Below are positions 4,199 through 24,313 of a DNA stretch of 31,477 bases, piece by piece. The notes beneath the pieces are model-generated. The model was not told the origin of the DNA. It saw only the letters and a list, made by a program, of their open reading frames with translations, and made no database searches. This DNA is from Myxococcales bacterium (GTDB lineage: Bacteria > Myxococcota > Polyangia > HGW-17 > SLPX01), in contig SLPX01000248.1 in assembly GCA_007131745.1 (NCBI GenBank), positions 1-31,477 of the forward strand, given 5' to 3'. Position 1 is the stretch's first letter; each line of letters opens with the position of its first letter. A program made the translations under genes and the position numbers.

Positions 4199-5101
4199 TT
4201 AAGGTTCCAACAAAATATCTCTTAAAATGACAAGAATGGCGGAAGGGGCGAGCAGTTTGCAATAAAGATTGCCACCCACCAAAGGGATCCAGTCTTCCGA
4301 CACCAAAGAAGTGGATGTAATAAAATAGTCTTTATCGTTTTCTATTTCGATCGTTAATTGAGAATCGACCCATTGGTCCCCTCTGGCATAAACCACATCA
4401 TCTTCAAAGCTGATATTGATTTCCGAATCGAGGAATTTTTGAAGGCAATCATTACTAACATTTTCAAGCACCCATTCCAGAGCATACTGATTAACTTCTG
4501 CACAGCTTTTTGCTTCTCCGATCACTATCGCTTCTCCGAAAGCATCCGCTAAAGGATTCTGCTTCTTCATTTTACACCAGATTTGACAGTCAAGCGGAAA
4601 CAGGCAGGACGGTGAAGTCGTGTCGTAACTGTGAATTGTCAGTTCTTTTTTGCTTTTGTCTATACCGGGTTTTGCATTGACGAACTCCCCCTGATCATCA
4701 TGAATTATGTTTTCAACTGTCACACCATCTCCCTCTACGATTCCCATATCAACGGAAGCTGCAATCCCCTGTGCAATTTCACACCATGCAGAGTGAACTT
4801 CCATGATATCTTCAATAACAATTTCCGAACATGAATTGGCAACGTCGGCATCTTTGTTATCATCATCATTTCCATCGGTTTGGTTTTCATTCTGACCTGA
4901 TGAATCATTCCCTATCGTACCGTCTTCATACAGATGAGCCGCATCAATGTGATCATTATTATCATTAAAGGATGATTTATCGCTTTCTCCGCAAAATGCG
5001 AAGAGCAAGAAAACCAAAGTGTAAATCGAAACCGGAAATTTCGCAAAACAGGATCTTCTGTTTTTGTGTGAGAAAACTATCTTATGACTTTGTAAATCCA
5101 T
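4199..5101 (-). CDS. putative lipoprotein, unknown function
   Basis: This 300-residue protein has a basic N-terminus, a hydrophobic stretch (about 26-36) and a Cys in the context LLFAFCGES. That is a loose lipobox, since Phe sits where Gly/Ala/Ser is usual. An Asp/Asn-rich, probably disordered linker follows (about 40-90), then a folded region with about eight further cysteines that could form disulfides in the periplasm. The start overlaps the last 25 bp of the upstream FG-GAP lipoprotein gene, so the two are probably translationally coupled. There is no strong Shine-Dalgarno sequence. Base composition is visibly more AT-rich than in the flanking transporter genes. I recognise no known domain. 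Lipidation is inferred. Confidence 0.65.
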   Translation of the reverse strand: MDLQSHKIVFSHKNRRSCFAKFPVSIYTLVFLLFAFCGESDKSSFNDNNDHIDAAHLYEDGTIGNDSSGQNENQTDGNDDDNKDADVANSCSEIVIEDIMEVHSAWCEIAQGIAASVDMGIVEGDGVTVENIIHDDQGEFVNAKPGIDKSKKELTIHSYDTTSPSCLFPLDCQIWCKMKKQNPLADAFGEAIVIGEAKSCAEVNQYALEWVLENVSNDCLQKFLDSEINISFEDDVVYARGDQWVDSQLTIEIENDKDYFITSTSLVSEDWIPLVGGNLYCKLLAPSAILVILRDILLEP

Positions 5102-6633
5102 ATTTTGTTGTCTTCATAGCTGGTAACGATAATTTCATTGTACCCGTCGTTATCAAGGTCAACGATTTTCATTCCTCCCGCCTGCCCGAATTCCGACCGC
5201 ATCAAAGGTTCGTCCTTAATGCCGTCAAGGACATGCTGAATGAATTCACCTGGTTTAGCCTGCTGATACCAGAAAACTCTTGAGTCGCCGTCTCCGCTTA
5301 CAACAAGGTCTGTAAGTCCGTTTCCGGAAATATCTCCGTACCCCAAAAGTCCGGGCGCTGCCTGGGGACCTGTCATTGGTGACTTTCTTGATTTGATTCC
5401 ATGCGATATTGTTGTTTTCGGCCAGAGTTCTCTAGGGTTTTCCGGTATATCGAAAATGAAAACACCTTCTTCGGGTCCATCCGGAAAATCATTTGTGTTT
5501 ACATGGTTGACTCCCACGCCTCTTAAAACACCGTCTCCATAGAAATCATGGATCATTTCAATCATGAAACCTTCACCGGAATCAGCATTGATGATGTGAG
5601 TTTCCCAGTGGTCGATTGAAATCTGCTCAAACCACAGAAAGCTGCCGTATTGTGATGTGTCCATAGTGAAGTATTGTGCCGTCACAATATCAAGCTTGCC
5701 GTTACCGGTAAGATCAAGAACTCTCGGAAAGGGTCCTCCCGCGTGATCGGATATTATTCTCGGCTCAGGGTCGAATCTTTGGGGAGAATCGACTCCTTTA
5801 AACCACATGAGAACTTCTTTCTTTTCAGAAATAGTTCCCATCAGGTTTTTCTTCATATAGCTTCCGTTTGTCACTATGTCTTTGATGCCGTCTCCGTCCA
5901 GGTCAACAAGCACAACATCAAAAAAGAAAAGATCGCTTCCATCGGGAACTATGTCGTGTCTTGTCCATCCGTTATCTGTTTGTTCGAGCCAGAAGAGGGC
6001 TCCGCATGGGCCTCCTCCCAATGGATTTGATTCGCAGGCAAGAAAACCAACAGGAACTATCATGTCCATTTTTCCATTGTCGTTAAGATCTTCAACAAGC
6101 ACAGGATGAGGAAATCTTACATCTCCGCTTGTATCAAGCGTCTCTCTGTCCCAGTCATTGAGGTTGCCGGTGCCCCAGTAAATATCGATTCTTCCTTTCA
6201 TTGAAATATTAGTGGGAGGCCCATATTGACAAACTATGACGTCCTTGAATCCATTCTGATTAAGATCAACTACTGTGACAAAAGCCGGATTCATCGGATC
6301 GTCATCCATCAAAATTTTTTCAAATTCTATGGGCCCTGTTTCATAATCAGGCTTTTCGTCCTCCTCGGTAAGACACCCGGAAAAATCCCACTTGCACTCT
6401 TCGGTGCAAACCGCAAGACCACTGACATAAGAAGAATCGAGGTCTGCACAGTCTTCAAATCCCCCGTCACACTCTTCCCCGGGATCGACAACTCCGTTTC
6501 CGCAAAGATTATCTGTCTTGTTGTCATTGTTTCCCGGTTCAGCATCGTTATCTCCACCGGTTTCCGAAGAACCTTTACAACCGGAGAAAATAAACAATGC
6601 AAATAACAACAAAACAATTTTGTTTATTCTCAT
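5077..6633 (-). CDS. FG-GAP/VCBS-repeat lipoprotein with myxococcal Cys-rich repeat
   Basis: The product is 518 residues. ATG 6633 is preferred over an upstream in-frame codon at 6702 because it is preceded by GAGAGGGG and begins a classic lipoprotein signal (lipobox FSGC, Cys19). After an Asn/Asp-rich linker comes CGNGVVDPGEECDGG from residue 44, matching the myxococcal disulfide-repeat motif. From about residue 105 to the end there are repeated D-x-N-x-N/D-G-x-x-D units (for example DLNQNGFKDVIV, DLDGDGIKDIV, DLDNDGYNEIIV), the calcium-binding FG-GAP/VCBS pattern that folds into a beta-propeller. It is probably an exposed or periplasmic lipoprotein of structural or binding role; the partner is unknown. 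A good promoter lies just upstream (6681-6709). Confidence 0.85.
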   Translation of the reverse strand: MRINKIVLLLFALFIFSGCKGSSETGGDNDAEPGNNDNKTDNLCGNGVVDPGEECDGGFEDCADLDSSYVSGLAVCTEECKWDFSGCLTEEDEKPDYETGPIEFEKILMDDDPMNPAFVTVVDLNQNGFKDVIVCQYGPPTNISMKGRIDIYWGTGNLNDWDRETLDTSGDVRFPHPVLVEDLNDNGKMDMIVPVGFLACESNPLGGGPCGALFWLEQTDNGWTRHDIVPDGSDLFFFDVVLVDLDGDGIKDIVTNGSYMKKNLMGTISEKKEVLMWFKGVDSPQRFDPEPRIISDHAGGPFPRVLDLTGNGKLDIVTAQYFTMDTSQYGSFLWFEQISIDHWETHIINADSGEGFMIEMIHDFYGDGVLRGVGVNHVNTNDFPDGPEEGVFIFDIPENPRELWPKTTISHGIKSRKSPMTGPQAAPGLLGYGDISGNGLTDLVVSGDGDSRVFWYQQAKPGEFIQHVLDGIKDEPLMRSEFGQAGGMKIVDLDNDGYNEIIVTSYEDNKIWIYKVIR

Positions 6634-6680
6634 GGAACCCCTCTCGCTTGAAAACCTATCGAGCACAATAAATTTAATTT

Positions 6681-6709
6681 CATATACGAAAGATTGATTC
6701 AACTGTCAA
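6681..6709 (-). promoter_or_regulatory. sigma70-like promoter for the FG-GAP lipoprotein gene
   Basis: On the minus strand, TTGACA (6704-6709) is separated by exactly 17 bp from TATATG (6681-6686). Transcription would start near 6674, giving a leader of about 40 nt before ATG 6633. The -35 is perfect; the -10 matches four of six positions. Confidence 0.5.
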
Positions 6710-8353: not shown

Positions 8354-8406
8354 TCGGGTTTCGGGTTTGGTTGAGGAACTGCTGTTTTTTTTCCGGGAGA
8401 TTTTTC

Positions 8407-9609
8407 ATGAGGGCAGTGCTCAGATACAGAGTTCCGGAAGCGTTGTGTTCCGGAGAGTGTAACAGGCGGATCGGAGCGTGGTTGATGGAAGCGGCGGGAG
8501 ATGCCGCCGATGAAGTGCTTATCAAGTTCGACGGTGTTACGGCTCGAATCAAGTCGTTTCAGAAAGTCGAGTTTTTGTCTTCCGTTCGACCTGGTGATTT
8601 TGTCGAAATCACAGCGTCGCTTAAAAAGTGGGAAGGCAATGTGCGGCACCTGGATGTTGAAATAAAACAGCTTGTCACCCGGCTGGAATCCGATGCTCCG
8701 GATGTTGGAAGGATGTTTCCCGAGCCTTGCCCGGCGGCTTCGGCCGAGTTGGTTTGCGAGGCGCGCGAGACTCCGAACCTGGCCACGGGTGCGCCGGAAC
8801 CTCTCATGGTGACAGTGGCGCCGGTGGGATTCGAGGTGGGCCGGGAAGACACGCCCCACATCCCCCTGACTCCGGCGGAGATTGCAGCCGACGTGGCGAG
8901 ATGTGCGGTGGAAGGAGCCTCGGTTGTTCATCTCCATGCTCGTGCGGCCGACGGTTCAGCAGTGCACGATGCAGGCTATTATGCAGAAGTGATTCGCCTT
9001 ATAAAGGCGCAATGTGACATCATCATACAGGTGACGACCGAAGGGGATGCTTCTCTCGACGTTGGGACCCGGTGTGCTCATTTGGGGGTCCAGGGAGTCG
9101 AGATGGCATCTTTTACAGCGGGCACGATAAACGCAGGTGAGCACATCTTGTTCAATTCCAAGCCTGTCATGGAGCATACGTGCAGGATAATTAACGGCCA
9201 TCGTCTTTTGGCTGCCGTAGAGGTGTACGATTCGGCTTTTCTTGAAAACGCGCGTGCGCTTGCAAAAAAGGGGTTGCTGCATCTTCCAGGCAACTTCGTG
9301 TTGATTTTCGGAGGCAAGGGAGGCATGGGCGCCAGGTCGACCAACATCGACAACTTGATCAATCTCGCTCCGCGCGGATCCAGAATTACGATTGCCGGCC
9401 GCGGGAAACATGCCTTTCCGGTTCTCAAAAAAGCCCTTGACCGGGGAACCCATGTACGGGTAGGGCTTGAAGACACAATTCACATTGAGGGCAAGACTCT
9501 TGCACAGGGCAATTCGCCTTTGGTATCGAAGGTGGTTGGAATGGCGGTCGCACAGGGCAGAAAAATAGCTGATGCTCCCACTGCGAGAAAACTGTTGGGG
9601 TTGAAGTGA
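8407..9609 (+). CDS. kal-kce: fused 3-aminobutyryl-CoA ammonia-lyase / 3-keto-5-aminohexanoate cleavage enzyme
   Basis: The product is 400 residues. ATG 8407 has GGGAG seven bases upstream; the longer reading uses an unsupported TTG at 8371. Residues 1-100 resemble the hotdog-fold Kal enzyme (conserved-looking VEFL and GDFVE). Residues about 130-400 are a complete BKACE/DUF849 domain. The Kce active-site residues, numbered as I recall them for the Cloacamonas enzyme, map in order: Glu14 to Glu143, zinc ligands His46/His48 to His175/His177 and Glu230 to Glu355, Arg226 to Arg351, Asp231 to Asp356, with Ser82 replaced by Thr211. Kce makes 3-aminobutyryl-CoA and acetoacetate; Kal removes ammonia to give crotonyl-CoA. 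The fusion therefore covers two consecutive steps of lysine fermentation. Other pathway genes are not in the window, and BKACE enzymes vary in substrate. Confidence 0.82.
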   Translation: MRAVLRYRVPEALCSGECNRRIGAWLMEAAGDAADEVLIKFDGVTARIKSFQKVEFLSSVRPGDFVEITASLKKWEGNVRHLDVEIKQLVTRLESDAPDVGRMFPEPCPAASAELVCEARETPNLATGAPEPLMVTVAPVGFEVGREDTPHIPLTPAEIAADVARCAVEGASVVHLHARAADGSAVHDAGYYAEVIRLIKAQCDIIIQVTTEGDASLDVGTRCAHLGVQGVEMASFTAGTINAGEHILFNSKPVMEHTCRIINGHRLLAAVEVYDSAFLENARALAKKGLLHLPGNFVLIFGGKGGMGARSTNIDNLINLAPRGSRITIAGRGKHAFPVLKKALDRGTHVRVGLEDTIHIEGKTLAQGNSPLVSKVVGMAVAQGRKIADAPTARKLLGLK

Positions 9610-10349: not shown

Positions 10350-10541
10350 TTGTTGAACAAAGATGTTTTCTTGAGAGAGGAAAAGAAGTCGAAACCCTGC
10401 GAATGGCGGATACAGAAACATTTTTTCCTTTTCGGGAAGATTCTCTGTGCGTTGGACGACTTTGTTGAATGTGCCGCGGAGTTTGTGTATGAAGCACGGG
10501 ATATCAACCTGAGGAAGGTTCGGAACGGAATTTTATCATGA
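10350..10541 (+). CDS. doubtful 63-codon ORF overlapping the RND start by ATGA
   Basis: This frame begins at a TTG without a clear Shine-Dalgarno sequence and ends at the TGA of an ATGA overlap with the RND start codon, the arrangement of translationally coupled genes. The C-terminal half (LDDFVECAAEFVYEARD...) has a normal amino-acid mix and predicted helix. I recognise no family. It may be a leader ORF, a decayed gene or chance. Confidence 0.2.
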   Translation: MLNKDVFLREEKKSKPCEWRIQKHFFLFGKILCALDDFVECAAEFVYEARDINLRKVRNGILS

Positions 10542-13500
10542 GACGTTTGGGCCGTTTTGTTTCCCGTTATGCTGTCTGGGTGATCGGTGTTTTTCTGCTG
10601 GTAGGCGGCTTGGTGGCGTACATTGGCGTGGATCCCGGGTCTGAAAGCGATGTGCTCAAGTTTCTACCCAGAACAAATCCCGATGTTGAGAGATTTTACA
10701 ATGTCAACGAGAAGTTTGGAGCGCTGAACATTGCGATAATCGGCATAAAGGAAGACGACATATTCAACGCGGATTTCATGACCAGGCTGGATGAAGCCAC
10801 GAGGGTGTTGCAAAACGAGGTGCGTGGAATCCACAGGGTCCTCAGCCTGACCACGCTTTCGGATTTTGAAATAATAGAGGGAGAAGAGGGGGGGGTTCAG
10901 CCCAAGGTGCTCGTGGATGTGGAGCATCTTCCGAGAGACGAAAAGGGATGGGAGGAACTGAAAGCAGGGGTTCTTGCAAAGCGACATGTAAGAGGGCACT
11001 TCGTGAACGAAGAAGGCAATGCCACTGTGTTGCTCTGTTACTTGGCGCCCAAGGGTCAGGTGGTTCCGATTACAAATGAGATCAAGAGAGAGATCCGGCA
11101 GAGGTTTCCGGATGCCGAACTTTACTGGGGAGGAAACCCGATTATTTCGGCTCACATTTTCGAGGTCACAGAACGGGACATGAGGCGGCTGACTCCGTGG
11201 GCCGTGGGCTTGATCCTGCTGGTGACCCTGCTCAGCTTCAGGGATCCCGTCGGCGTATTGTTGGCGCTCGTTGCTACGGTTTTCGGTGGAACAATCGCGT
11301 TTGCAGCCATGAGGCTGATGAACGTAAAGGTAAACATCGTCCTGAGTTCGATGCCCGTGATTCTTTTTGCCGTAGGAAGCGCGTATTCAATACATTTCCT
11401 TGTGAGCTACTACGATCTCAGGAAAAACAAGGAAACCGGAGAGGCGGTGGAGAGCGCTTTTTCGAGCGTAGGGCCGGGTATTTTGGCGGCCGCGCTTACA
11501 ACAGTGTCGGGTTTCTTCTCGTTTCTTGCAATGGATATGCAACCGATGCGGGAGTTCGGTCTCTTCACGGGGATCGGGATTCTATCATGCATGTTGGGCG
11601 CTTTGCTGCTGATTCCCGCGGTGTTGGCGATATCCAAACGCAAGAGAAAGGTCAAAGCGGAAAAGGAAGAAGCCGGAGTGTTGGTGCGATGGATGGCGGT
11701 CGTAGCCGGGTTTGCGTCCCGGAAACGGGTCTACATTCTTCCGGGCCTTTTGCTCCTGGGGCTTTTCGGTGTTTATTATTCCATCCAGGTGAAGCTGGCC
11801 ATGGAGACCTCTTCGTTTTTCAGGGAGGGGAGCGAACCGGACCTTGCCAACAAGTTTTTGAGCCGTGAGTTCGGCGGATCTCAGTATGTGCAGATCCATG
11901 TCCAGGCCGACATGGATGATCCAGCGGTATTGAAGGAAATCAGGCGGTTGGGCGACAGGATCGAAACCGTTGGCCATGTTTCTGCGGTCCAACACGTGGC
12001 GCAACCTTTTGGTCTCGTAAGCGAAGCGTGGGTGAAGCTTAGGCGGATCCCGGATACCCGGGAGAGGGTTCAAACGCTTGCCAATTTTGTTTTGACCGAC
12101 CCGGCGAGTCTTCAGCTCATGACCGGGACCCGCGACGAAGCCTTGATTCATGCGAAGGTTCGCACAAACGACGCTGATGAATTGGTCAAGGTGGTGGACG
12201 AAATCAGGTCCATCGTGGAGAAAGAGTGGGGGACTCCTTTTGTGAAGGTGACCCTGGCGCCGGATTCGCCTGCAAAACTTCGCGAAGCAGTTATCACCGC
12301 CCGGGCTTCCATGGTGGCCGAGCACATCACTGCATTGTTGAGGCGGGCGGGTGCTCCGGTTGAAAAGAAAGGTGAAACCGGGATCAAGGAAAAGCTTGTC
12401 AGCGTCCAGACCGATTGGAAATTCAAGCCCGGTAAAGAAGATATCAAAGCGGTGGAAGACAAAATATTCGCTCATTTGCGATCAGCCGAGACGATTATCG
12501 AACTTCCTCCGGCCGGAGAGCAGGGGGATCCGGCGCGGAATCTTGCGCACGCGGTTGCATCCTTGGGTCCCGAGCCGCCTGAAGACGATCTGGACGCAGC
12601 CGGGCTGAAAGCTTTGGAAGGTGTTTTGGATGAAGGATCGGCTATGAGCTTGACAGCCACCCTGGATCCGTACCTGGAGGACGCCTGGAAAATACAGGAA
12701 AGCAGATCGGTTCTTTCCATGCTCGGTCGGGCCGTTGATGTAGATGTCTCCTCTTTTGATGAGGAAAAACTTGCTCTGCTTGAAACCGCGCTTTTGGATC
12801 TGCAAGCCGAAAACGTGGCGGTTCGTAAGCCTGCGATCGAGGGCGTGGCCTTGGATCAAGCCGATACGTTGAAGATGAAGGGTTTTTTGACCGGTGCTCC
12901 CGTGTTGAACCAGGGGCTTTCAAAATCAGTTGAAATGAATCAGATAAAAAGCCTGGTTGTCTCAGGTGTGCTGGTGCTCCTGGTCATGGGAATTATTTTC
13001 AGGTCTTTCCTGGCCTCCTTGGTAGCGTTTCTTCCCGCGGGCATGACGATTCTCTTGATTTTTGGATACATGGGTTTTCGCGGCCTTTATTTGGATGTTG
13101 GAACATCAATGATAGCTTCGATAGCTTTGGGTGTGGGTATAGATTACGCTATTCATTTCATGGTCTGGTGGAGGCGTTCGGCAAAGGCTCTTTCCGATGA
13201 AATGAAACGGGTGGAACCTGGTTTCAAGAAGGCCCGGCTGGCTGAGCGGTCCGCCGTGGAGGCGGCAGGCAAGTGCGGAGGCGCCATTTTGACGAACGCT
13301 TTGATGGTGGCCGGCGCTTTTTCGGTGCTGGCGATGGGAGAAGCCGCGCCCTTGAAAACTTTTGGAACAATGACCGCGGGAGCGATGTTCCTGGCTGCCG
13401 CTATGGCTTTTACTGCTGTGCCTGCATTATCCGGGTTAATCCTCGTAGACAGGTGGGCCATGAAATCGAATATCGAAGGAGCGGAGCGCTCCAGAGAATC

Positions 13501-13576
13501 GGCCCTGTTGGAAGAAAAAACGGATGGAGATGGGAGTTTTTCGGTTTCCGCTGCCAAGGAAGCGGAAAAGAAATGA
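10538..13576 (+). CDS. RND/MMPL-family transporter (HAE-3-like)
   Basis: This 1012-residue inner-membrane protein has the duplicated RND layout: TM1 (13-29), a periplasmic loop (30-218), TM2-6 (220-366), TM7 (399-415), a second periplasmic loop (418-804) and TM8-12 (805-970). The TM10 motif GIDYAIH (867-873) is typical of the MMPL/HAE-3 branch, which moves lipids, hopanoids or other hydrophobes and often works without a classical membrane-fusion partner. The second loop is about twice as long as the first; the extra charged, helical stretch lies around 575-770. The C-terminal tail is hydrophilic. GGAACGGAA lies about eight bases before the ATG. It heads an apparent operon with LolA-like and outer-membrane barrel genes, which supports envelope lipid transport. 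The substrate is unknown. Confidence 0.9.
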   Translation: MRRLGRFVSRYAVWVIGVFLLVGGLVAYIGVDPGSESDVLKFLPRTNPDVERFYNVNEKFGALNIAIIGIKEDDIFNADFMTRLDEATRVLQNEVRGIHRVLSLTTLSDFEIIEGEEGGVQPKVLVDVEHLPRDEKGWEELKAGVLAKRHVRGHFVNEEGNATVLLCYLAPKGQVVPITNEIKREIRQRFPDAELYWGGNPIISAHIFEVTERDMRRLTPWAVGLILLVTLLSFRDPVGVLLALVATVFGGTIAFAAMRLMNVKVNIVLSSMPVILFAVGSAYSIHFLVSYYDLRKNKETGEAVESAFSSVGPGILAAALTTVSGFFSFLAMDMQPMREFGLFTGIGILSCMLGALLLIPAVLAISKRKRKVKAEKEEAGVLVRWMAVVAGFASRKRVYILPGLLLLGLFGVYYSIQVKLAMETSSFFREGSEPDLANKFLSREFGGSQYVQIHVQADMDDPAVLKEIRRLGDRIETVGHVSAVQHVAQPFGLVSEAWVKLRRIPDTRERVQTLANFVLTDPASLQLMTGTRDEALIHAKVRTNDADELVKVVDEIRSIVEKEWGTPFVKVTLAPDSPAKLREAVITARASMVAEHITALLRRAGAPVEKKGETGIKEKLVSVQTDWKFKPGKEDIKAVEDKIFAHLRSAETIIELPPAGEQGDPARNLAHAVASLGPEPPEDDLDAAGLKALEGVLDEGSAMSLTATLDPYLEDAWKIQESRSVLSMLGRAVDVDVSSFDEEKLALLETALLDLQAENVAVRKPAIEGVALDQADTLKMKGFLTGAPVLNQGLSKSVEMNQIKSLVVSGVLVLLVMGIIFRSFLASLVAFLPAGMTILLIFGYMGFRGLYLDVGTSMIASIALGVGIDYAIHFMVWWRRSAKALSDEMKRVEPGFKKARLAERSAVEAAGKCGGAILTNALMVAGAFSVLAMGEAAPLKTFGTMTAGAMFLAAAMAFTAVPALSGLILVDRWAMKSNIEGAERSRESALLEEKTDGDGSFSVSAAKEAEKK

Positions 13577-13640
13577 TAAAACCATGTATGTTAAACATAA
13601 CGAGAGTAATTTGAAGAAACAGATCAAGCGAGGTGGCAGA

Positions 13641-14408
13641 ATGAAGAAATCAATTGCATGCACGGCGTTTTTCGCGCTGATTGTTATAGCGGCCGGGGTT
13701 GTGGGCGTTCAGGCGAATCCACGATCCAAGGGCGATAGGATCTTGAGGAAATATGAAAAATCCTTCAGCAACTTCAAGGATCAATATGCAAGATTCAGGA
13801 TGGTGATTCACGAAAAGAGCGGGAAAAAGAACGTGGAGTTCACCCTGTATAACCGGCCGGGATGGACCAGGCTCATGAGGTTCACCGATCCGGGCGATGT
13901 GCGGGGCCAGTCGATCCTGGTTATGAGCAGGCAGGAAATGTACATATGGCTTCCGGCCTACAGGAGGGTGAGGCGTATCGCGGGCCACGTGAGAAACCAG
14001 GGGTTCATGGGGTCGGTGATGACTTTTGACGATATGGCCATCGGCCAATGGTCCGGGGATTATGACGCTCGATTCCTCAAGGAGGATGCGAACCACTGGT
14101 ATATCAGGCTTACTCCCAAGAAAGGTAAGAACGTGGCGTTTCCGCAACTCTGGATGAAGATAGAAAAGAACATGAGGCAGGCGGTTGAAATTCGTTACCT
14201 GAGCGAGAAGGGAAGGCTGCTTAGAACACAGACCATGACCGGGTGGAGTTGCGAGCAGAAAGACAAGCATTGCGCTCCCAAGAGAGTAAGGATGGTGGAT
14301 CACCGTCAGGGAAACGCTACCACCGACCTGATTCTTCTTGAGAGTAATTTCAATCACGGCATTCCGGACAGGTACTTCACGGTCCGGCATTTGCAGCGTG
14401 GAGGTTGA
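13641..14408 (+). CDS. LolA-like outer-membrane lipoprotein-sorting family protein
   Basis: The product is 255 residues. ATG 13641 is chosen because GAGGTGG precedes it and it begins a clean signal peptide (about 1-26, ending VQA); an open extension to 13524 overlaps the RND gene and has no signal. The mature part fits the LolA-like family (PF17131, TP_0789 type): FRMVIHEKSGKKN, the strand RLMRFTDPGDVRGQSIL, IWLPAYRRVRRI, and the late IPDRYFTVRHLQRGG. LolA-like folds are half-open beta-barrels that carry acyl chains across the periplasm. It starts 64 bp after the RND gene, and this family is often encoded next to MMPL/RND transporters. It therefore probably shuttles the RND cargo. The cargo is an inference. 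Confidence 0.85.
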   Translation: MKKSIACTAFFALIVIAAGVVGVQANPRSKGDRILRKYEKSFSNFKDQYARFRMVIHEKSGKKNVEFTLYNRPGWTRLMRFTDPGDVRGQSILVMSRQEMYIWLPAYRRVRRIAGHVRNQGFMGSVMTFDDMAIGQWSGDYDARFLKEDANHWYIRLTPKKGKNVAFPQLWMKIEKNMRQAVEIRYLSEKGRLLRTQTMTGWSCEQKDKHCAPKRVRMVDHRQGNATTDLILLESNFNHGIPDRYFTVRHLQRGG

Positions 14409-14482: not shown

Positions 14483-16279
14483 GTGCGCGTCAAAACCGGA
14501 TTGATATGTGTATCGGCCCTTGCAGTCATATTTGGCTCAGTGGTTTTCGGATTCGTTCGAACGGCTCATGCTCAACTTGAAACGACTTATTCCATTACCC
14601 TTCAGACCGATCTTCGCTACATCGTGCAGGAGAAGACAACGAGAGAAAGGATCCCAAGGGCCGAGGCTCTGCGCAATCCTTGGCTGCAGGAAGCATGGCG
14701 GACCGGTCAGCTGAGGGAAATTACCCTTATACCGCACGGCTTTTCCAGGAATGAGAACCGGGTGAAATTCAAGGCCGAGGCACGGGGCCGAAGGGTCAGG
14801 GGTGTAGCGGACGTGGATCTCGTAATGCTCGGCTACAACACCGAGTTGACCAATCTTCCGTCCATGACACAGAGAAACATGATGGATCCATTTCGGATCG
14901 AAGCCCATGCTCTGTATGTGGACATACTGGGATTGGGTACGGAGAAGCTGGATCTTCGCATAGGTCAGCAGATAGTGAACTGGGGCACCGCGGACCAGTT
15001 CAATCCTACGTCCAATCTGAACCCGTTGAACCTGGAAGACAGGCTGATGTTTGGGGATCTGCTTGCAACGCCGATGGTGCGGGCGGATTTCGCGATAAAC
15101 CTGGACTGGAACATTACGGCCGCGTGGGTGCCCATTTTCAGGCCTAACCTGCTTCCCCGGTCCGCTTCCCTGGGTCTTGCCTCGCCCGACAGGATTCCTA
15201 TCGTGGAGGACCATTACCGTTGGCAGCTCAGCGCGGAGCGCTACGTTGGTGAAATCCTCACCGACGGACCCACCCGAGTCACCGAGGCCCGACTCTTGCT
15301 GCCCGACACCGATATAAAAAATTCCCAGGTTGGGGTCAGGATCAGGGGCAGGGTGCTCAAGCAGGACATTTCGTTCAGTTACTACTACGGGCGCTCAAAA
15401 ATGCCCCAGCCTGTCTTCAGCAAGACATTCATGAATCCCGATGAGAACATCATACAGACGCGAGTGGATCTCGCATTTCCGAGAATGCATGTGATCGGCT
15501 TCGACATGGCTGGCCAGATTCCATGGGCGCGGGCCTTGCGGCGTGCCGTCAGAACCCTTGAGCCTGTGGGCTGGTGGTTTGAAGCCGGCGTGTTTTTCCC
15601 GCAGCGGATGACCATGGCTCTATTCCAGGAGAATTTCGGAATTATTGAGGATGGTGAGTACGACTATTCGAGAATCGACCCTGAGAATCCGCGTCGACCC
15701 ACGGTAGTCGACAACACCCCGTTTTTAAAATGGGTTCTGGGTTTTGACTATACTTTTTCCCAGAACTGGTGGGCGAACGTGCAATGGGTGCACGGATTTC
15801 CGGATGAGTTCGGTGCGGGCGACTGGCTTTCGAATCTATGGGCGGCTCAGCAGGGTTGGGCGCCCACAAGGTTTCGAACGGACGAACCGTCCGCGGGATA
15901 CTTTGCATGCATGTCCCATGAAACCGTTGGAGAGTGCGCTCACGAATGGGTGCGACCCAGGATCAGCGATTACCTGGTAACCGGTGTCGACTACAAGTTC
16001 TACCGGGATGCAATGCTTTTGCGCCTCTTCTTCATCATTGATATGGGCGGAGTCCACGAGCGGTATTTCGACGGCACCAAAAGGGTTTCCAAGTGGCACC
16101 ACCCCTTCAGCAAGGAAGGTTACTCGGTAATGCTTTACCCGCAATACACCTGGTCTTTGGGACAGGGAGCGGAGTTGAGCGCGGGAGGTCTGATAATGCT
16201 GGGCAGGAATCATACTCGTTTCGGGGATCCGGCCGCGGGAAGCTCGATGGTGTGGACCCGTGCCAGATTCGCATTTTGA
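14483..16279 (+). CDS. DUF1302-like outer-membrane beta-barrel protein
   Basis: This 598-residue protein starts at a GTG with AAGAGGTG four bases upstream and has a signal peptide ending near TAHA. The segment DLRIGQQIVNWG followed by FNPTSNLNPLN matches the conserved core of the DUF1302 family of large outer-membrane barrels. The remainder shows many amphipathic aromatic-rich strands and ends in Phe (RARFAF), as usual for a BAM substrate. In other Gram-negatives DUF1302 proteins are encoded with DUF1329 and MMPL proteins; here a LolA-like protein takes the periplasmic place. The likely role is the outer-membrane end of the hydrophobe route formed with the two genes upstream. No substrate can be inferred. 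Confidence 0.78.
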   Translation: MRVKTGLICVSALAVIFGSVVFGFVRTAHAQLETTYSITLQTDLRYIVQEKTTRERIPRAEALRNPWLQEAWRTGQLREITLIPHGFSRNENRVKFKAEARGRRVRGVADVDLVMLGYNTELTNLPSMTQRNMMDPFRIEAHALYVDILGLGTEKLDLRIGQQIVNWGTADQFNPTSNLNPLNLEDRLMFGDLLATPMVRADFAINLDWNITAAWVPIFRPNLLPRSASLGLASPDRIPIVEDHYRWQLSAERYVGEILTDGPTRVTEARLLLPDTDIKNSQVGVRIRGRVLKQDISFSYYYGRSKMPQPVFSKTFMNPDENIIQTRVDLAFPRMHVIGFDMAGQIPWARALRRAVRTLEPVGWWFEAGVFFPQRMTMALFQENFGIIEDGEYDYSRIDPENPRRPTVVDNTPFLKWVLGFDYTFSQNWWANVQWVHGFPDEFGAGDWLSNLWAAQQGWAPTRFRTDEPSAGYFACMSHETVGECAHEWVRPRISDYLVTGVDYKFYRDAMLLRLFFIIDMGGVHERYFDGTKRVSKWHHPFSKEGYSVMLYPQYTWSLGQGAELSAGGLIMLGRNHTRFGDPAAGSSMVWTRARFAF

Positions 16280-16295
16280 CGGCCCGGGGTTACTT

Positions 16296-16299
16296 GGAG
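16296..16299 (+). promoter_or_regulatory. ribosome binding site deciding a TTG start
   Basis: GGAG lies seven bases before TTG 16307. No ATG or GTG in frame gives a full-length protein; the next in-frame Met is residue 29, inside the fold. Confidence 0.6.
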
Positions 16300-16306
16300 C
16301 GATTGT

Positions 16307-16960
16307 TTGGAGCAGTTGATCGGAAAGAAGAGCGGGAACATAAACCGCTCGGATCTTGATGAAGCCGCGGCCGGCTTCAAACGAGTGTGCATGGATCTTG
16401 GTTGTGGTGACGGAAAGCTTGTCTACCGAATGGCCGGCGAGGATCCGGAGACGTTTTTTCTGGGGGTGGATGCAGCCAGGGAAAACCTTCAGCCGATAGC
16501 ATCGAAAAGTTCGCGATCTTTGAAAAAAGGTGGACGCGGGAACCTCGTGTATTTGATTTTGGCTGCTGAATGTTTGCCCGGTGAACTGTTCCAAATAGCT
16601 GATCTTTTAATGATCAACTTTCCATGGGGAAGCTTGCTTAGAAGTTTTCTCACGAATGAAGATTCATTGCACGAAAGACTGTGTTCCTGTCTCAAGAGAG
16701 GCGGAGAACTCGTGGTTTTGCTGAATGACAGTCTCTACGCGGATGGTGAACTTGTTCAACGATTGGAGATCCCGCGGTTGGACGATTCCCATCTAAATGA
16801 TTTTATAGTTCCGGCTCTGGACGGGGCGGGATTCAATATTTTGGAATCGACCTTGGTAAAAAACGTTCTACTTCCGGTACGGACAAGCTGGGGTCGCAAA
16901 CTCACCCAGACCCATCAACACGGCGCTTCATGGATGCTGCGCGCTGTAAGAGTTGATTGA
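16307..16960 (+). CDS. NpmA/KamB-like 16S rRNA (adenine1408-N1)-methyltransferase
   Basis: The product is 217 residues and starts at TTG. From residue 1 it aligns almost without gaps to NpmA as I recall that sequence. It has the SAM motif MDLGCGDGK (Asp30, Gly32, Gly34), LGVDAARENL (Asp55), the KKGGRGNLVY and AAECLP segments, NFPWGSLL with Trp107, and TSWGRKL with Trp195. In NpmA, Trp107 and Trp197 stack around the flipped base A1408, and both have counterparts here. NpmA/KamB methylate N1 of A1408 in the 30S decoding site, which blocks many aminoglycosides. The gene is 27 bp after the DUF1302-like gene and probably cotranscribed. There is no transposase, integron or antibiotic cluster in the window. 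Family membership is strong; activity and resistance are inferred. Confidence 0.85.
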   Translation: MEQLIGKKSGNINRSDLDEAAAGFKRVCMDLGCGDGKLVYRMAGEDPETFFLGVDAARENLQPIASKSSRSLKKGGRGNLVYLILAAECLPGELFQIADLLMINFPWGSLLRSFLTNEDSLHERLCSCLKRGGELVVLLNDSLYADGELVQRLEIPRLDDSHLNDFIVPALDGAGFNILESTLVKNVLLPVRTSWGRKLTQTHQHGASWMLRAVRVD

Positions 16961-17115: not shown

Positions 17116-18849
17116 ATGGAACGGTTTCTGGACTGGATAGAACGAACCGGCAATCGTTTGCCCCATCCCTTTTGGATCTTTTTCTATCTTAGTTGTTTCG
17201 TCCTGGTCTTGTCTTTGATCCTCGGTCTTGTGGGTGTTTCCGTTACTCATCCGATCACCGGCGAGACGGTTGCTGTTCAGAGCCTTTTTTCCAGGTACGG
17301 CCTTCAGAAATTCGTATTGGAGATGGTGGACAATTTTGCTCATTTCGCCCCGATGGGTCTCATGCTTGTCATGTTGATGGGAGTTTCCATGGCCGTGCAT
17401 ACCGGGTTGTTGGAGACCGTGCTGGGCAGTATGACGCGCGTGCCCGATTTCTTGCTCCTTCCCATCATCGTGGTGACCGGTATCATGGGTAACCTGGCAT
17501 CCGATGCGGGCATAGTGGTTGTTCCGCCTCTGGCAGCGCTCGCGTTCAAGAAAACGGGAAAAAATCCGCTTGCAGGTGTTGTGCTGGGTTACGCCGCGTG
17601 CACCGCGGGGTTTACCGCGACGCTCATACCAAGGGGCACGGATGTGCTGCTCGCCGGTTTCACCAATGAGGCACTGGAAGATCCGAACTTGCACGTGGGA
17701 GCCGCAGCGAATCTCTACTTCATGATAGCGTCGGTGCTCATGCTTTCCATCGTCATGACATGGGTGGGCCGCAGGTATACCATTCCAGCGTGCGGCGAAC
17801 CCAAGGATGTCAAGCCCGACGAGGAACAGGATCCGGCAGAAATCAAAATCCGCAAAAAGGGTCTGCTCTGGGCGCTTGTGAGTATGGTGATTTTTACAGG
17901 CCTGATCCTGCTAACGTTCATCCCCGAGGACGGGTTGCTCAGATATAACGTAAAGGAAATAGAAACGATAAAGATAAGCGAAGTCTCCGAGGGAACGAAA
18001 GTTCGGAGAGTTCTTGGAACCACGATGACGGAGACCCAAGACGGCCGAGTCATCCGCCAGATCGCGTTTGAAAAGCGAAGACTTGTTCTTGAGGAAGTAA
18101 ATGAACAGACGTGGAGGGACGGCGCGACCGTACACGTGTTTCTCGCGGACAAAGCGCCGCGCGGGGATCCTGCCGAAGTAGTCAGGGTCGAAATAATGCC
18201 GGATCACATGAGGGGGCCTTTTTTCATGGGCATGGTTGCGATTCTGTTCTTTTTCTTCGCGATCCCCGGAGTTGTGTACGGTGTTGTCACCCGCAAAATC
18301 ACCAAGCTGGTGGATATCCCAAACATGATGGGCAAGAGCGTGAAGGGAATGAGCGGATTGATCGTGTTGATCTTGATAATCGGTCAGTTCGTGGCGCTCT
18401 TCCAATGGTCGAACCTGGATCGGGTGGTGGCCATATCAGGAGCCAACCTTTTAAATGATCTCCAAATCCAGGGCGCGCCGTTGATGGCCGTGACCGTTGT
18501 TGTAGTGGCGGTATTGAACATATTCCTGGGATCCAGCGCGGCCAAGTGGGCGATGTTGGCCCCGATAATTGTTCCCATGTTCATGTTCTTGGACAAGCCC
18601 TTGACGCCTGCGATATCCCAGCTTGTTTATCGTATCGGCGATTCCATCACAAACGGCATCTCGCCGCTGTATCCGTATTTTCCACTCGCGCTCGCCTGGG
18701 TTAAAGAATACCGGAAGGACGCGGGCGTCGGAACTCTCATCAGGCTGCTCCTGCCTTTCGCCGTATTTACCGGCATCGCCTGGATTGCATTGCTTGTGAT
18801 CTGGTATTGGCTGGGAATTCCTGTGGGCCCCGGCGAAGCCATGCCTTAA
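17116..18849 (+). CDS. AbgT-family transporter with extra soluble insertion
   Basis: This 577-residue inner-membrane protein carries the AbgT hallmarks: LASDAGIVVVPPLAALAF (Asp130, first hairpin), GSSAAKWAMLAPIIVPMF (Trp478), and YRIGDSITNGISPLYPYF (Arg506, Asp509), with Pro498 in the second hairpin. AbgT proteins move p-aminobenzoyl-glutamate or export sulfonamides by a proton- or sodium-linked mechanism. E. coli AbgT is about 510 residues. The surplus lies between helices at about 277-365, a charged beta-rich segment with no membrane helix. AAAGGAG at 17095-17101 is a somewhat distant Shine-Dalgarno sequence. The stop codon overlaps that of the convergent BCCT gene. The family call is firm and the substrate open. 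Confidence 0.9.
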   Translation: MERFLDWIERTGNRLPHPFWIFFYLSCFVLVLSLILGLVGVSVTHPITGETVAVQSLFSRYGLQKFVLEMVDNFAHFAPMGLMLVMLMGVSMAVHTGLLETVLGSMTRVPDFLLLPIIVVTGIMGNLASDAGIVVVPPLAALAFKKTGKNPLAGVVLGYAACTAGFTATLIPRGTDVLLAGFTNEALEDPNLHVGAAANLYFMIASVLMLSIVMTWVGRRYTIPACGEPKDVKPDEEQDPAEIKIRKKGLLWALVSMVIFTGLILLTFIPEDGLLRYNVKEIETIKISEVSEGTKVRRVLGTTMTETQDGRVIRQIAFEKRRLVLEEVNEQTWRDGATVHVFLADKAPRGDPAEVVRVEIMPDHMRGPFFMGMVAILFFFFAIPGVVYGVVTRKITKLVDIPNMMGKSVKGMSGLIVLILIIGQFVALFQWSNLDRVVAISGANLLNDLQIQGAPLMAVTVVVVAVLNIFLGSSAAKWAMLAPIIVPMFMFLDKPLTPAISQLVYRIGDSITNGISPLYPYFPLALAWVKEYRKDAGVGTLIRLLLPFAVFTGIAWIALLVIWYWLGIPVGPGEAMP

Positions 18850-20789: not shown

Positions 20790-23561
20790 CTAGCCTACGA
20801 CGACAAGGCACCACAGATCGTGGATCGTAGCGGAAGCCGTGTCGGGGTTACAATCCTCCACCGGTGAGTTCTCGCCATCGTCGTTCGCGACCACCCGGAA
20901 GTTCAGAGCTGTGTTTTGGAGTTCCGCCGGCACTTCGTAGAAAAAAGACACCACACTGGTACCGCCGGGAAGGATGGGTTCTTGTACCTCAACAGTTTGA
21001 AGTAAAATGTCGCCATCCAAATTGTAGAGGCTCACCGGGAGCCCGGCCGGTATTCCGGCCGTTCCCAGGTTTTGTATGGTTGCCTGCAAATGAATATGAG
21101 GCGGGCAATTCAGCGTATTGGCCTGTAGATAGCTGACCACCACGTCCGGGGAGTTGAGCGGACGTTCTCCCTGGCGGTTGGCCCGGAAGGTGTTGTGGGA
21201 AGCCCATGACTTCGCCTGGACCATGGGCACGCTTCCATCGTCCATGATATTGTCTATCGAGTAGGCGTGTTGGTTCCAGATAGGCCGGGTGCGCACCCAC
21301 AGGTCTGCCGTGTCCTGGAACGCGAAGACCCCACTCGTGCCGGTGTCGCACTCGGGCGGCCGAGGGCCGTCTCCGAAGCACTCGGGGAACCAGTCGGGGC
21401 GATTGCTCGGGCTCGCCGGGTTGAGCCACGCTGCGCAGTCCCTATTATATTGGTCCCGGTTGGCTATCACCACGAGGTTGCTTCTGCCGTCACCGTTTAC
21501 GTCGACCACCAGCGGGTACTCGGTGGCGGTCCGGGACGTGTTGAGACGCATCATGTGCGGTTGGCCTGTTTGACCGTCAAGGATGTAGAGACGGCATTCG
21601 TCATTATATACTATTTCGTTACGGCCGTTGCCCTGGAAGTCGAAGACCGAGCTGCCGGTGGTCATGGAACCGTCCTGGGTGCGAATGGACCAAAGCACCC
21701 CCGGGCCGACGCCTCCTTCGAGATTCGCGTCCGGGCAAGGTTCCACGAGGCAATCTATTCCCGGCGTGCATTCCGGGAAGACCGGATGATCGCAGAGGCC
21801 CCCGGCATCCACGCCTTCGAGGCAGTCCAAGTCGAACACGGTGTAGCAATCCGCGCCGGGAAGACCGATCTCCACGGTTCCGTCTCCATCGAAATCCGCG
21901 ATGTTCGGGGGGCCTCCTGCTCCTCCGCCCGGGACATTCACTTCGTACAGTGTTTCGCCGGTCTGCCCGTCGAGAATGCGCAGGACACCGTTTCGCACAA
22001 CCGCAACCTCGGGAAGGCCGGCGCGGCCGCCGGTGGTCACGATATCGGCCACCGCCGGTATTCCGTTGTTGAACGTATCGTTGCACCAAAGCATGTCGAG
22101 GGCTCCGGAGCCGATCCCACCCGTTCCGTCCCGGTCGAGCCGCCATGCGCAGTCTCCGGTTAGGATTTCCAGGGTGCCGCTTCCGTCCAGGTCCGCGGCC
22201 GCGGCGCTACCCCAGTTTGCGAGCCCGTTGTGTCCCCGGCTCGCCTGGGTTCCGTCCGCCAGGATCTCCCCGCTCAGGGCGTCGATCACCATGGTTCCGA
22301 TTATGGCTTCCACCATGCCGTTGCCGTCAAGGTCAGCGAAGAGGGGTCCCATGCCGTTCATTTGGATACTCAGCGTGCCTTGCTGCACGTGCCAGAGCAA
22401 GCAACCGTCGGGATCCGCGTCCGGATCGGGGCAGGCTACCACGTTTTTCACGAGAGCGGCTCCTGCATTCGTCCCGCCCATGGTTACGAGCATTTCCGGG
22501 TAGCCGTCTCCCGTGACGTCGCCGAGAGCGATGTGCCCTTGGCCGGAGAACACGCGTGCAGTGTTGACATAGATTGGTTCGCCGTTCGTGCCGTCTAAAA
22601 CCACGAGAATTGCGTAGTGTTGGTTGGAGCCGGCGTAGACTGTAACCGCGACGTTGGGGGTGCCGCTCCCGTTCATGTCCGCAGTAACCGGGATGCTTTG
22701 GACGTTTTCATAAATCAGGCCGTTGTGTTCGATGCCCGCGAAATGCCACAACTCTTCGAGATCAAAGAGGTCGAAATCAACCTCCCTTGTGCACTCTATG
22801 CCTTCGGGAAAGTCGTCCGGCATGCACTTTCCGATGGATTCGTCGCAGTACTCACCAAAGTCGCAGTCCGAGAATATATCGCAGGGTCCTCCCGGAGTGC
22901 GGCATTCACCGAAAACACAGAAATCTCCGGATGGACAGCACTCATCAAAGTTTTCTCCACACAGCTCACCCAGCCCCGCACAGCTTGGCGCGCAGTTTCC
23001 CGCGGGCCCGCATTCGGGGGTGTCGCCTTCACAGCAGAGCTCGCCGAAGAGTCCGCAGACCGTGCCGGCACAGATGGGCCGGCATGCAAGCTCGATCCGG
23101 CAATCGTCCCCCTCGCAGACCCGGTGTGGCGCGCATTCTTCATTTTCTCCACAACAGGATCCCGCGCAGTAGACGGATGAGAGACACTCACACAACCCCT
23201 CAATACACTCCTCGCCTTCAACACAGTCGGCCTCGGAAGAGCATCCGCACCGTCCATCGACGCACACGCTGGATGCACACTCATGCGGCGCGCCAAAACC
23301 GCTCCCGATTTCGTTGCATGTCATTACCGAGCCGTTTTCACAGACCGACTCGCCCGGAGTGCAAACATTCGGCGTGCAATACCCACCACCTTCCGGGCAA
23401 TGCATGGATTCAGGGCAGTCAGCCTGGTTTTCGCACAAAATGCATTCATCGAACGGGCAGACATCCGTGCCGATTGAATCCCCTCCGCATGCCGATACCC
23501 CGAAAACCGCAATCACAAACCCTAAGACGCACCCTGAAAAAAAACCGGTTTTATGTTTCAT
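20790..23561 (-). CDS. large Cys-rich FG-GAP-repeat lipoprotein
   Basis: This 923-residue protein has a lipoprotein signal (lipobox VSAC, Cys25) and a textbook AGGAGG before the ATG. Residues about 30-270 hold some 45 cysteines in short repeated units (such as CSSEADCVEGEECIEGLC), a disulfide-rich stalk common in myxobacterial surface proteins. Residues about 285-740 hold repeated D-x-N/D-G-x-G-x-x-E/N calcium-site motifs of the FG-GAP type, likely a beta-propeller. A segment with WNQHAYSIDNI and HNTFRANRQG follows, seen in related myxococcal proteins. The last 90 residues look like a CARDB/Ig-type beta-sandwich. It is probably an outer-surface adhesion or binding protein. There is no operon partner; the TA pair next to it is divergent. 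Confidence 0.85.
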   Translation of the reverse strand: MKHKTGFFSGCVLGFVIAVFGVSACGGDSIGTDVCPFDECILCENQADCPESMHCPEGGGYCTPNVCTPGESVCENGSVMTCNEIGSGFGAPHECASSVCVDGRCGCSSEADCVEGEECIEGLCECLSSVYCAGSCCGENEECAPHRVCEGDDCRIELACRPICAGTVCGLFGELCCEGDTPECGPAGNCAPSCAGLGELCGENFDECCPSGDFCVFGECRTPGGPCDIFSDCDFGEYCDESIGKCMPDDFPEGIECTREVDFDLFDLEELWHFAGIEHNGLIYENVQSIPVTADMNGSGTPNVAVTVYAGSNQHYAILVVLDGTNGEPIYVNTARVFSGQGHIALGDVTGDGYPEMLVTMGGTNAGAALVKNVVACPDPDADPDGCLLWHVQQGTLSIQMNGMGPLFADLDGNGMVEAIIGTMVIDALSGEILADGTQASRGHNGLANWGSAAAADLDGSGTLEILTGDCAWRLDRDGTGGIGSGALDMLWCNDTFNNGIPAVADIVTTGGRAGLPEVAVVRNGVLRILDGQTGETLYEVNVPGGGAGGPPNIADFDGDGTVEIGLPGADCYTVFDLDCLEGVDAGGLCDHPVFPECTPGIDCLVEPCPDANLEGGVGPGVLWSIRTQDGSMTTGSSVFDFQGNGRNEIVYNDECRLYILDGQTGQPHMMRLNTSRTATEYPLVVDVNGDGRSNLVVIANRDQYNRDCAAWLNPASPSNRPDWFPECFGDGPRPPECDTGTSGVFAFQDTADLWVRTRPIWNQHAYSIDNIMDDGSVPMVQAKSWASHNTFRANRQGERPLNSPDVVVSYLQANTLNCPPHIHLQATIQNLGTAGIPAGLPVSLYNLDGDILLQTVEVQEPILPGGTSVVSFFYEVPAELQNTALNFRVVANDDGENSPVEDCNPDTASATIHDLWCLVVVG

Positions 23562-23654
23562 GGCCGAAAACCTCCTGCAAAGAGTTTTTCAAAAAACAGT
23601 GTGTGCTGTCAACCGGCTTTATTTCCAGGATAATTTTCAGGATGCAGATGGAAC

Positions 23655-23682
23655 TTGATATGCGGTCCGAATATGGTACTTT
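23655..23682 (+). promoter_or_regulatory. promoter of the toxin-antitoxin pair
   Basis: TTGATA (23655-23660), a 16-bp spacer and TACTTT (23677-23682) precede the antitoxin start by 22 bp. Short leaders and promoters near the start suit autoregulation by the antitoxin, which is known for the family. Confidence 0.4.
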
Positions 23683-23704
23683 ATTTGGACAGGAGGATTG
23701 TAGT

Positions 23705-23983
23705 ATGAATATTACTAACGATATTAAGCCTGTTACTTATTTGAAATCACGGGCGGCCGATTTGCTCAAACAGATTAATGAAACGCATCGACCAGTGATA
23801 ATAACCCAAAACGGTGAGCCTCGGGCTGTAATTCAAGATCCGGAAAGTTATGAAAACATGCGTAATGCCATCGGTCTTTTGAAGCTTATTTCGGTTGGGG
23901 AAGCCGATGTAAGGGAAGGGCGAACAAAGTCACAAGAAGATGTGTTCGATGAAATCGAAAGCGCACTGAAAAAAAAGAAGTAA
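23705..23983 (+). CDS. Phd/YefM-family antitoxin
   Basis: The product is 92 residues. AGGAGG lies eight bases before ATG 23705; a much longer open frame through this start is a shadow of the Cys-rich gene on the other strand. The N-terminal part (PVTYLKSRAADLLKQINETHRPVIITQNGEPRAVIQDPESYE) is written here only by its features: the alternating helix and strand, and the ITQNGEPRAV motif, of the Phd/YefM DNA-binding fold. The charged C-terminal half (about 60-92) should be the toxin-wrapping tail. It would neutralise the ParE-like toxin encoded next to it and repress the shared promoter. The stop codon directly abuts the toxin ATG. Confidence 0.88.
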   Translation: MNITNDIKPVTYLKSRAADLLKQINETHRPVIITQNGEPRAVIQDPESYENMRNAIGLLKLISVGEADVREGRTKSQEDVFDEIESALKKKK

Positions 23984-24313
23984 ATGGGAAAAAAGTATCA
24001 TGTTGGATGGGCTTTGGCTGCACAAAGCGATTTAGAGCAAATAATTGATCGGATATCGGTTGATGGCCCTATCAATGCACTAGAAATATTGAAGAAAATC
24101 AGAAATAAAGCGTGGCGCCTCCGTACCTTGCCCCATCGGGGTAGGATTGTACCTGAACTGAGAGATCAGGGTATACATATTTATCGAGAAATAATTGTTC
24201 CACCCTGGCGAATCATATACAGAACATCAGATAGCAATGTTTTCATTTTGTCCGTTATAGATTCCAGACGGAATGTTGAAGATATTTTGCTGGATCGATT
24301 TTTCAAAGAATAG
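23984..24313 (+). CDS. ParE/RelE-superfamily toxin
   Basis: This 109-residue protein fits the ParE-like toxin fold: helix-rich start with AAQSDLEQIIDRI, the basic LRTLPHRGRIVPEL segment, IYREIIVPPWRIIYR, and a final VFILSVIDSRRNVEDIL. The pattern Y-R-E-I-x(4-5)-W-R-I-I-Y is typical of ParE rather than mRNA-cutting RelE, so gyrase poisoning is the likelier mode, but this is not decisive. The ATG follows the antitoxin TAA with no gap, so the two are translationally coupled. The pair is AT-richer than its neighbours, which suggests acquisition by transfer. Confidence 0.85.
   Translation: MGKKYHVGWALAAQSDLEQIIDRISVDGPINALEILKKIRNKAWRLRTLPHRGRIVPELRDQGIHIYREIIVPPWRIIYRTSDSNVFILSVIDSRRNVEDILLDRFFKE

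Follow-up and report, generated by a model that had tools for sequence, protein, structure and literature searches.

We propose that the gene at 16307..16960 on the plus strand of the window, by which we mean the whole stretch of 31,477 nucleotides that was analysed, encodes an active A1408 methyltransferase that would block many aminoglycosides, and that it is a tolerance gene of patchy occurrence, placed at the end of an MMPL-LolA-DUF1302 gene set. We consider this joint reading probable, and it draws directly on the sequence, the family, the predicted fold, the conserved residues and the gene order; within it, methylation of A1408 by the window protein is very likely, judging from its likeness to characterised enzymes, and the patchy tolerance role is our best guess.

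The frame at 16307-16960 (+) is open over 217 residues from a TTG start, begins 27 nt past the DUF1302 stop codon, and encodes a protein of the NpmA family of 16S rRNA (adenine-1408 N1) methyltransferases. A GGAG at 16296..16299 (+), 7 nt before the TTG, is from its sequence a possible ribosome-binding site. The protein database version of this gene (P0002) has 189 aa and begins at an internal ATG at 16391, a short start that we rejected given that the N-terminal hairpin would be missing; the TTG is the better choice because in the PDB sequence search the alignments of the solved relatives start at residue 2-5 of the 217-aa form, and because of the GGAG 7 nt upstream. The reverse complement of 16307-16960 has several stops in its frame 1, and a 252-aa antisense frame at 15836-16594 that overlaps the gene gave no match to any Pfam family. 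Promoter and terminator scans were not clearly above shuffled sequence, and an Rfam search of the window gave no match, with no rRNA gene present in it.

An earlier note, made from the sequence alone, had called the product an NpmA/KamB-type homologue, and had named a structure prediction and a tree with NpmA, KamB and CacKam as ways of checking this, and placement in another methyltransferase family as an outcome that would speak against it. The membership is now supported by the profile, the predicted structure, the tree and the active-site residues. PF24675, the Pfam NpmA family, matches the window protein with 184.6 bits (E 1.9e-54, cut-off 60), and besides it only the general PF02390 passes its Pfam cut-off (29.6 bits vs 24). 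The ten best PDB sequence matches are all m1A1408 enzymes, with E-values of 1.3e-43 for Kmr, 5.4e-32 for NpmB1, 7.7e-28 for NpmA, 1.8e-23 for CacKam and 1.1e-19 for KamB. The AlphaFold2 model (pLDDT 94.6, pTM 0.91) predicts a class I SAM fold with an N-terminal beta-hairpin, nearest to the solved members of the family. When this predicted model was searched with Foldseek, ranks 1-19 went to chains of Kmr, NpmA, CacKam, NpmB1, KamB or UncKam (E 6.8e-25 to 2.2e-17, against 2.6e-11 for the chain after them), and with VIA ranks 1-15 were m1A1408 enzymes (Z 29.0 to 20.4), followed by TrmB at 17.9. Assignment to another methyltransferase family was looked for and rejected, given that TrmB and the general class I models score far lower; TrmB, the tRNA m7G46 methyltransferase, has 12% identity to the window protein, and its model TIGR00091 gives 28.1 bits vs a cut-off of 112.65. 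The protein also stays below the NCBIfam cut-offs of the named resistance proteins NpmA, NpmB, KamB and WarA (NF000030, 91.4 bits vs 470; NF040634, 107.5 vs 460; NF000363, 100.2 vs 350; NF051863, 84.0 vs 305).

Near relatives are few. A single-sequence search of 5.8 billion proteins gave 13 matches at E <= 1e-5, the window's own protein included, and five proteins at 39-58% identity (P0003-P0007, with P0007 annotated as from a deltaproteobacterium) form one clade with it. This six-member clade has 100/99 support in both trees, the second of them built on a thinned set of 58 rows and both excluding the fragments L043, L037 and L029; inside it the window protein groups with P0003 and P0004 (100/98), and these with P0005-P0007 (100/99). 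Next to the clade, with weak support (85/66), is Kmr of Sorangium cellulosum (PDB 4RWZ, 4RX1), the nearest characterised enzyme (41% over 196 residues) and the best PDB sequence match, whose aligned sequence is also carried by L001, strain So0157-2. Kmr differs from the window protein in having Q at the position of E88, and K and A at those of S71 and K73. NpmA, from an E. coli clinical isolate (3MTE, 3P2E), is 35.6% identical over 205 residues and lies on a different branch, and the window, unlike NpmA, has no sign of a mobile element. NpmB1 (7EHF) groups with acidobacterial members (95/89); KamB (3MQ2) and CacKam (4X1O), at 27% and 29% identity to the window protein, both group with L101 (100/99); and UncKam (7JLZ), an A1408 methyltransferase of an uncultured bacterium according to its PDB title, is more distant. 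As observations in their own right, L100:6891-7574, from a genome (G503) in the phylum of an Oligoflexia genome, is 53% identical to clinical NpmA and is its nearest tree row (99/93), which makes it a candidate lead to where NpmA came from, and L101:616-2604 (G327, in the phylum of a Chloroflexi genome) holds a CacKam/KamB-like member, 44% identical to CacKam, adjoining a DUF371 protein.

In the family alignment the window protein keeps Asp30, Asp55, Glu88, Trp107, Thr193 and Trp195. D30, D55 and W107 are where the earlier note puts them, and W195 does align with NpmA W197; W107, W195 and D55 are each invariant in 79/79 aligned rows, and D30 is found in 77/79 (one E, one gap). Passages of PMC4705659 report that the equivalent Asp and Trp substitutions abolish resistance in CacKam, that docking on 16S rRNA is through the basic beta2/3 loop, and that of the basic docking positions tested in CacKam (R43, R73, R76, K77 and K80) four gave inactive Ala variants, K77 included. 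Four of these five positions are basic in the window protein (K37, K67, R70, K74), which has S71 at the position of K77, so that three of the four positions with an inactive CacKam variant are basic, and it carries an extra Lys, K73, in the same region. Compared with the five aligned enzymes that have been characterised, the window protein departs at S71/K73 and in a C-terminal stretch. The S/K arrangement occurs in 12/89 rows, six being those of the window clade and six of alphaproteobacterial type, and we dropped it as a clade-specific mark because of these latter, four of which have a DUF371 neighbour. In the beta6/7 linker, R197 and K198 stand at CacKam R205/R206. The Arg that holds the flipped A1408 is R207 in NpmA and R206 in CacKam; an evident counterpart of NpmA Arg207 is missing in the window protein, in a column that depends on the alignment, and in place of the Arg205/Arg207 of NpmA the six members of the clade carry an HPDG-type stretch, HQHG in the window protein, again with the alignment unsure, so that we put no weight on the Arg207 difference. 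For Kmr, no single basic-residue substitution in the beta6/7 linker reduced activity, as stated in a passage of PMC4705659. Elsewhere in the family, the position of E88 is Leu in the rsmI-linked members L095-L098, which may therefore differ in detail, and a 20-row, mostly Chloroflexota tree clade (e.g. L030:10001-10600), together with some others, has no basic beta2/3 docking segment, rows being gapped at window residues 73-76 in 23/79 and at 73-75 in 32/89, so that those members may dock differently or act elsewhere.

The methyltransferase gene lies in a row of genes on the same strand: an MMPL/HAE3-type RND transporter gene (10538..13576, +, 1012 aa; PF03176, E 9.1e-36; TIGR00921, E 4e-67, below its cut-off), a LolA-like outer-membrane lipoprotein-sorting protein gene (13524..14408, +, 294 aa; PF17131, E 4.4e-39), a DUF1302 family gene (14483..16279, +, 598 aa; PF06980, E 2.5e-11), the methyltransferase gene itself, and, 155 nt downstream, an AbgT family transporter gene (17116..18849, +, 577 aa; PF03806, E 7.4e-146). 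The neighbours identified over the 31 kb consist for the most part of transporters, FG-GAP proteins, a BKACE-type enzyme, a phosphatase, a toxin-antitoxin pair and a histidine kinase, and apart from the histidine kinase they had no match in the flanks of 49 family loci (blastp, 1e-8); a conserved operon with MMPL-LolA-DUF1302 is accordingly unsupported, none of these genes being found in those flanks. Seven relatives of the MMPL neighbour are 49-71% identical to it; among the 120 relatives listed, 9 of the 11 named by organism are Myxococcota, Polyangiaceae/Polyangium or Deltaproteobacteria, at 34-39%, and a distant relative occurs in 17/266 genomes of Sorangium's phylum. The methyltransferase gene has a GC3 of 0.51 vs 0.61-0.66 in its four nearest genes and a mildly atypical codon usage (z -2.2, with 3/16 tested window genes deviating more), which leans towards a later arrival of the gene, a weak indication for 217 codons.

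No transposase or integrase model matched among the 28 window frames scanned with Pfam, so that, as far as these scans reach, the description of the gene as lying outside any resistance element holds within the 31 kb. No aminoglycoside biosynthesis family was recognised among the neighbours. Searches for relatives, run without a positive control, gave nothing in viral contigs, nor by tblastn in 72,556 plasmid and 50,697 phage records. Three other features of the window may be mentioned. At 4199-6702 there are two minus-strand genes, of 300 aa without a family and of 541 aa with FG-GAP repeats, with a GC of 0.40-0.44 and a codon usage that deviates strongly (z -4.5 and -4.6), a possible foreign segment. 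At 23720-24313 a Phd/YefM-type antitoxin, which is the C-terminal part of a long frame at 22787-23983, is followed by a ParE-type toxin frame as a type II toxin-antitoxin pair. The gene at 8371-9609 fuses a 3-aminobutyryl-CoA ammonia lyase-like part to a BKACE/3-keto-5-aminohexanoate cleavage enzyme-like part, with PF05853 (BKACE) over its Pfam cut-off and the NCBIfam models below theirs.

The family itself is large and scattered. A passage of PMC4705659 counted eleven members in 2015 and a passage of PMC12406665 named a handful of clinical members in 2025, whereas our profile search gave at least 4,001 related proteins at E <= 1e-10 among 7,996 scored, with patchy copies in several phyla. The 120 matches listed carry PF24675, and among the 7 of them with an organism or sample name 5 are Acidobacteriota or Pyrinomonadaceae. 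Among the loci that a scan of GTDB representatives gave, at least 55 and spread over Chloroflexota, Acidobacteriota, Pseudomonadota, Myxococcota, WWE3 and others, a profile score of 80 bits or more marks 49 as members (L050-L055, with a weak or no profile match, were left out). The family was found in 2/282 genomes of Sorangium's phylum, both of them carriers already known (G001, G007; a second search centred on G007, apparently of the same draw, gave 1/282), in 22/80 genomes of an acidobacterial genome's family, of which four or more were known beforehand (G005, G004, G581, G612), and, with the centre genome included in each case, in 19/201 genomes of the phylum of a Chloroflexi genome, 2/45 of the phylum of an Oligoflexia genome, and 8/367 of the alphaproteobacterial class of G616. 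In none of the sampled groups, therefore, is the NpmA family a core gene present in most genomes of the lineage, and it is patchy even inside a taxonomic family, though many of the assemblies are incomplete. The suggestion of the earlier note that the gene belongs to an ancestral pool of this resistance stands as far as a large environmental reservoir is concerned; the window gene itself is not close to clinical NpmA, to which L100 is closer.

In some of these genomes the family gene lies beside rsmI. By tblastn, an RsmI/DUF371-type protein is found near 6/49 loci (L003, L004, L011, L012, L014, L005), the remaining 43 being without it; all 49 entered this search, and for 7 of them the target frame could not be resolved in the table of neighbours. 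In L003, L004, L011 and L012 (Alphaproteobacteria) and in L014 (Myxococcota) it is an RsmI-type C1402 2'-O-methyltransferase fused to DUF371; the DUF371 part is at the N terminus in the alphaproteobacteria, and at the C terminus in L014. These fusions, at L011:10648-11967, L012:10648-11967, L004:10540-12021, L003:11387-12658 and L014:10528-11943, with a further one at L093:7505-8779, exceed the TIGR00096 cut-off in L003, L004, L011, L014 and G617 (the genome of L012), and in four of the five loci first named the fusion gene adjoins the family gene, L003 having one 240-aa gene between. In L005 (Thermoanaerobaculia), L094 (G656) and L101 the DUF371 part is joined to a remainder matching no Pfam or NCBIfam model. 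In the 367-genome sample, the one class in which this operon was looked at closely, 6/8 carriers have, immediately downstream and on the same strand, an RsmI that exceeds the TIGR00096 cut-off, with DUF371 in G616 (the genome of L011, titled Rhodospirillaceae) and G929 and alone in G903, G686, G808 and G711, and the distances from the methyltransferase stop to the first rsmI start are -14, -8, -4, +6, +31 and +35 nt, so that three overlap; the arrangement with unfused rsmI, at -14 to +6 nt, is seen at L095:6249-7764, L096:7578-9072, L097:6740-8337 and L098:6358-7854. The two carriers without an adjacent RsmI are G656, with a convergent DUF371 gene, tail to tail, and G702, with an lpxK neighbour. 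In 4/6 genomes tested (G615, G616, G617, G007) the linked RsmI is the only TIGR00096 match found; G614 has a second RsmI copy, and the only recognised RsmI of G003 is on another contig.

DUF371 was found in 3/367 genomes of the class, all three of them carriers and all near the family gene; without the centre genome this is 2/7 carriers vs 0/359 others, a hypergeometric probability of about 3e-4 computed by hand and ignoring kinship. Among 30 family-carrying genomes it occurs in 6, each time no more than about 1.1 kb away from the family gene, and among 14 control genomes in three archaea only, so that in the bacterial genomes searched it was seen only near an NpmA-family gene. We found neither an NpmA-rsmI operon nor a bacterial DUF371 in such a role in the titles or abstracts that our searches of the open-licence literature gave. 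Another RNA-modification neighbour, a TruB-like gene upstream on the opposite strand, is present in two WWE3 records (L002:9126-9974, L016:2806-3585), with PF01509 in L002 and 47% identity between the L016 protein and that of L002. RsmI and NpmA both act in the 30S decoding centre, as a passage of PMC5053481 states, and according to a passage of PMC12406665 ArmA blocks RsmI at C1402 and NpmA blocks RsmF at C1407. The adjacency to rsmI, the fusion in both orders and the recurrence in more than one phylum suggest, from gene order, that decoding-centre modification may be cooperative in the hosts of rsmI-linked members, and a native modification operon in these lineages, and with it a native role for part of the NpmA family, is plausible.

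This native role is not automatically transferable to the window gene, which lies on another branch and has neither partner, no RsmI or DUF371 being found in the window by tblastn at E <= 1e-3. The proposal that the window gene may be a native rRNA modification enzyme gains from the family members that sit beside rsmI elsewhere and loses for this gene, with its few near relatives, patchy family, atypical GC3 and codon usage, and missing partners. The rival reading in which m1A1408 would be a constitutive mark tuning decoding in the host, with resistance as a side effect and, in the apparent rsmI operons of other lineages, two marks on helix 44, we regard as unlikely: the rsmI linkage in the six alphaproteobacterial carriers, its recurrence in L004, L012 and L014 and, with one gene between, in L003, the linked RsmI as sole copy in four genomes and the decoding centre shared by both enzymes speak for it, and they are countered by the carriers without adjacent RsmI, by the minority standing of the family everywhere sampled, known carriers counted, and by the Leu at the E88 position in L095-L098, besides what was said of the window gene. 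A reading of the whole family is likewise doubtful: the A1408 family would originally be a native ribosome-modification system, an rsmI operon partner in several lineages and sometimes with DUF371, from which clinical NpmA and the producer enzymes would have escaped, the window gene being an unlinked descendant kept for tolerance. If true, it would place m1A1408 near Cm1402 in the decoding centre.

Change of substrate, for example to another 16S nucleotide or a tRNA, is an improbable alternative for the window protein. Its scores far under the curated cut-offs for the named enzymes, its S71/K73 and C-terminal stretch, and TrmB as the next fold outside the family would fit such a drift; the stacking Trp pair, the SAM residues and four of the five basic docking positions are nevertheless kept, and all the nearest structures of the predicted model are A1408 enzymes. 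Very improbable in our judgement is the self-protection of an aminoglycoside producer in the manner of KamB, with the biosynthetic cluster outside the window. In its favour, the closest relative that has been characterised, Kmr, comes from the natural-product-rich genus Sorangium. KamB is from a tobramycin producer, as given in a passage of PMC4705659. Against this, the 31 kb show no recognised aminoglycoside biosynthesis family, and none was recognised among the 25 commonest of 175 neighbour families at 42 other loci, where 137/144 neighbours were scanned, the 7 left out of the tally being very long or at contig edges.

Our preferred reading remains that of an active A1408 methyltransferase held patchily as a tolerance gene. 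With the substrate, product and resistance taken from the characterised relatives, the window protein would dock on the assembled 30S subunit through its basic beta2/3 loop (K67, R70, K73, K74) and its beta6/7 linker (R197, K198), A1408 would be flipped out of helix 44 and held between W107 and W195, and, with SAM held by D30, D55 and E88, its N1 would be methylated, after which many aminoglycosides would no longer bind the modified ribosome. According to passages of PMC4705659, which also discuss the kanamycin MICs conferred by Kmr, m1A1408 makes bacteria highly resistant to kanamycin, neomycin, apramycin and others. The host, an uncultured bacterium, may have deltaproteobacterial or Myxococcota affinity, and in it the gene would be translated, and might be co-transcribed, at the tail of the MMPL-LolA-DUF1302 transporter gene set; as for its physiological role, the patchiness fits resistance, and also fits an accessory modification. 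Where the family gene is linked to rsmI, the question of whether it is native or for resistance becomes a simple test, namely the presence of m1A1408 in the host of a linked gene. Relatives are scattered over environmental bacteria, and the pairing of some of them with rsmI hints that this kind of resistance may go back to routine upkeep of the ribosome.
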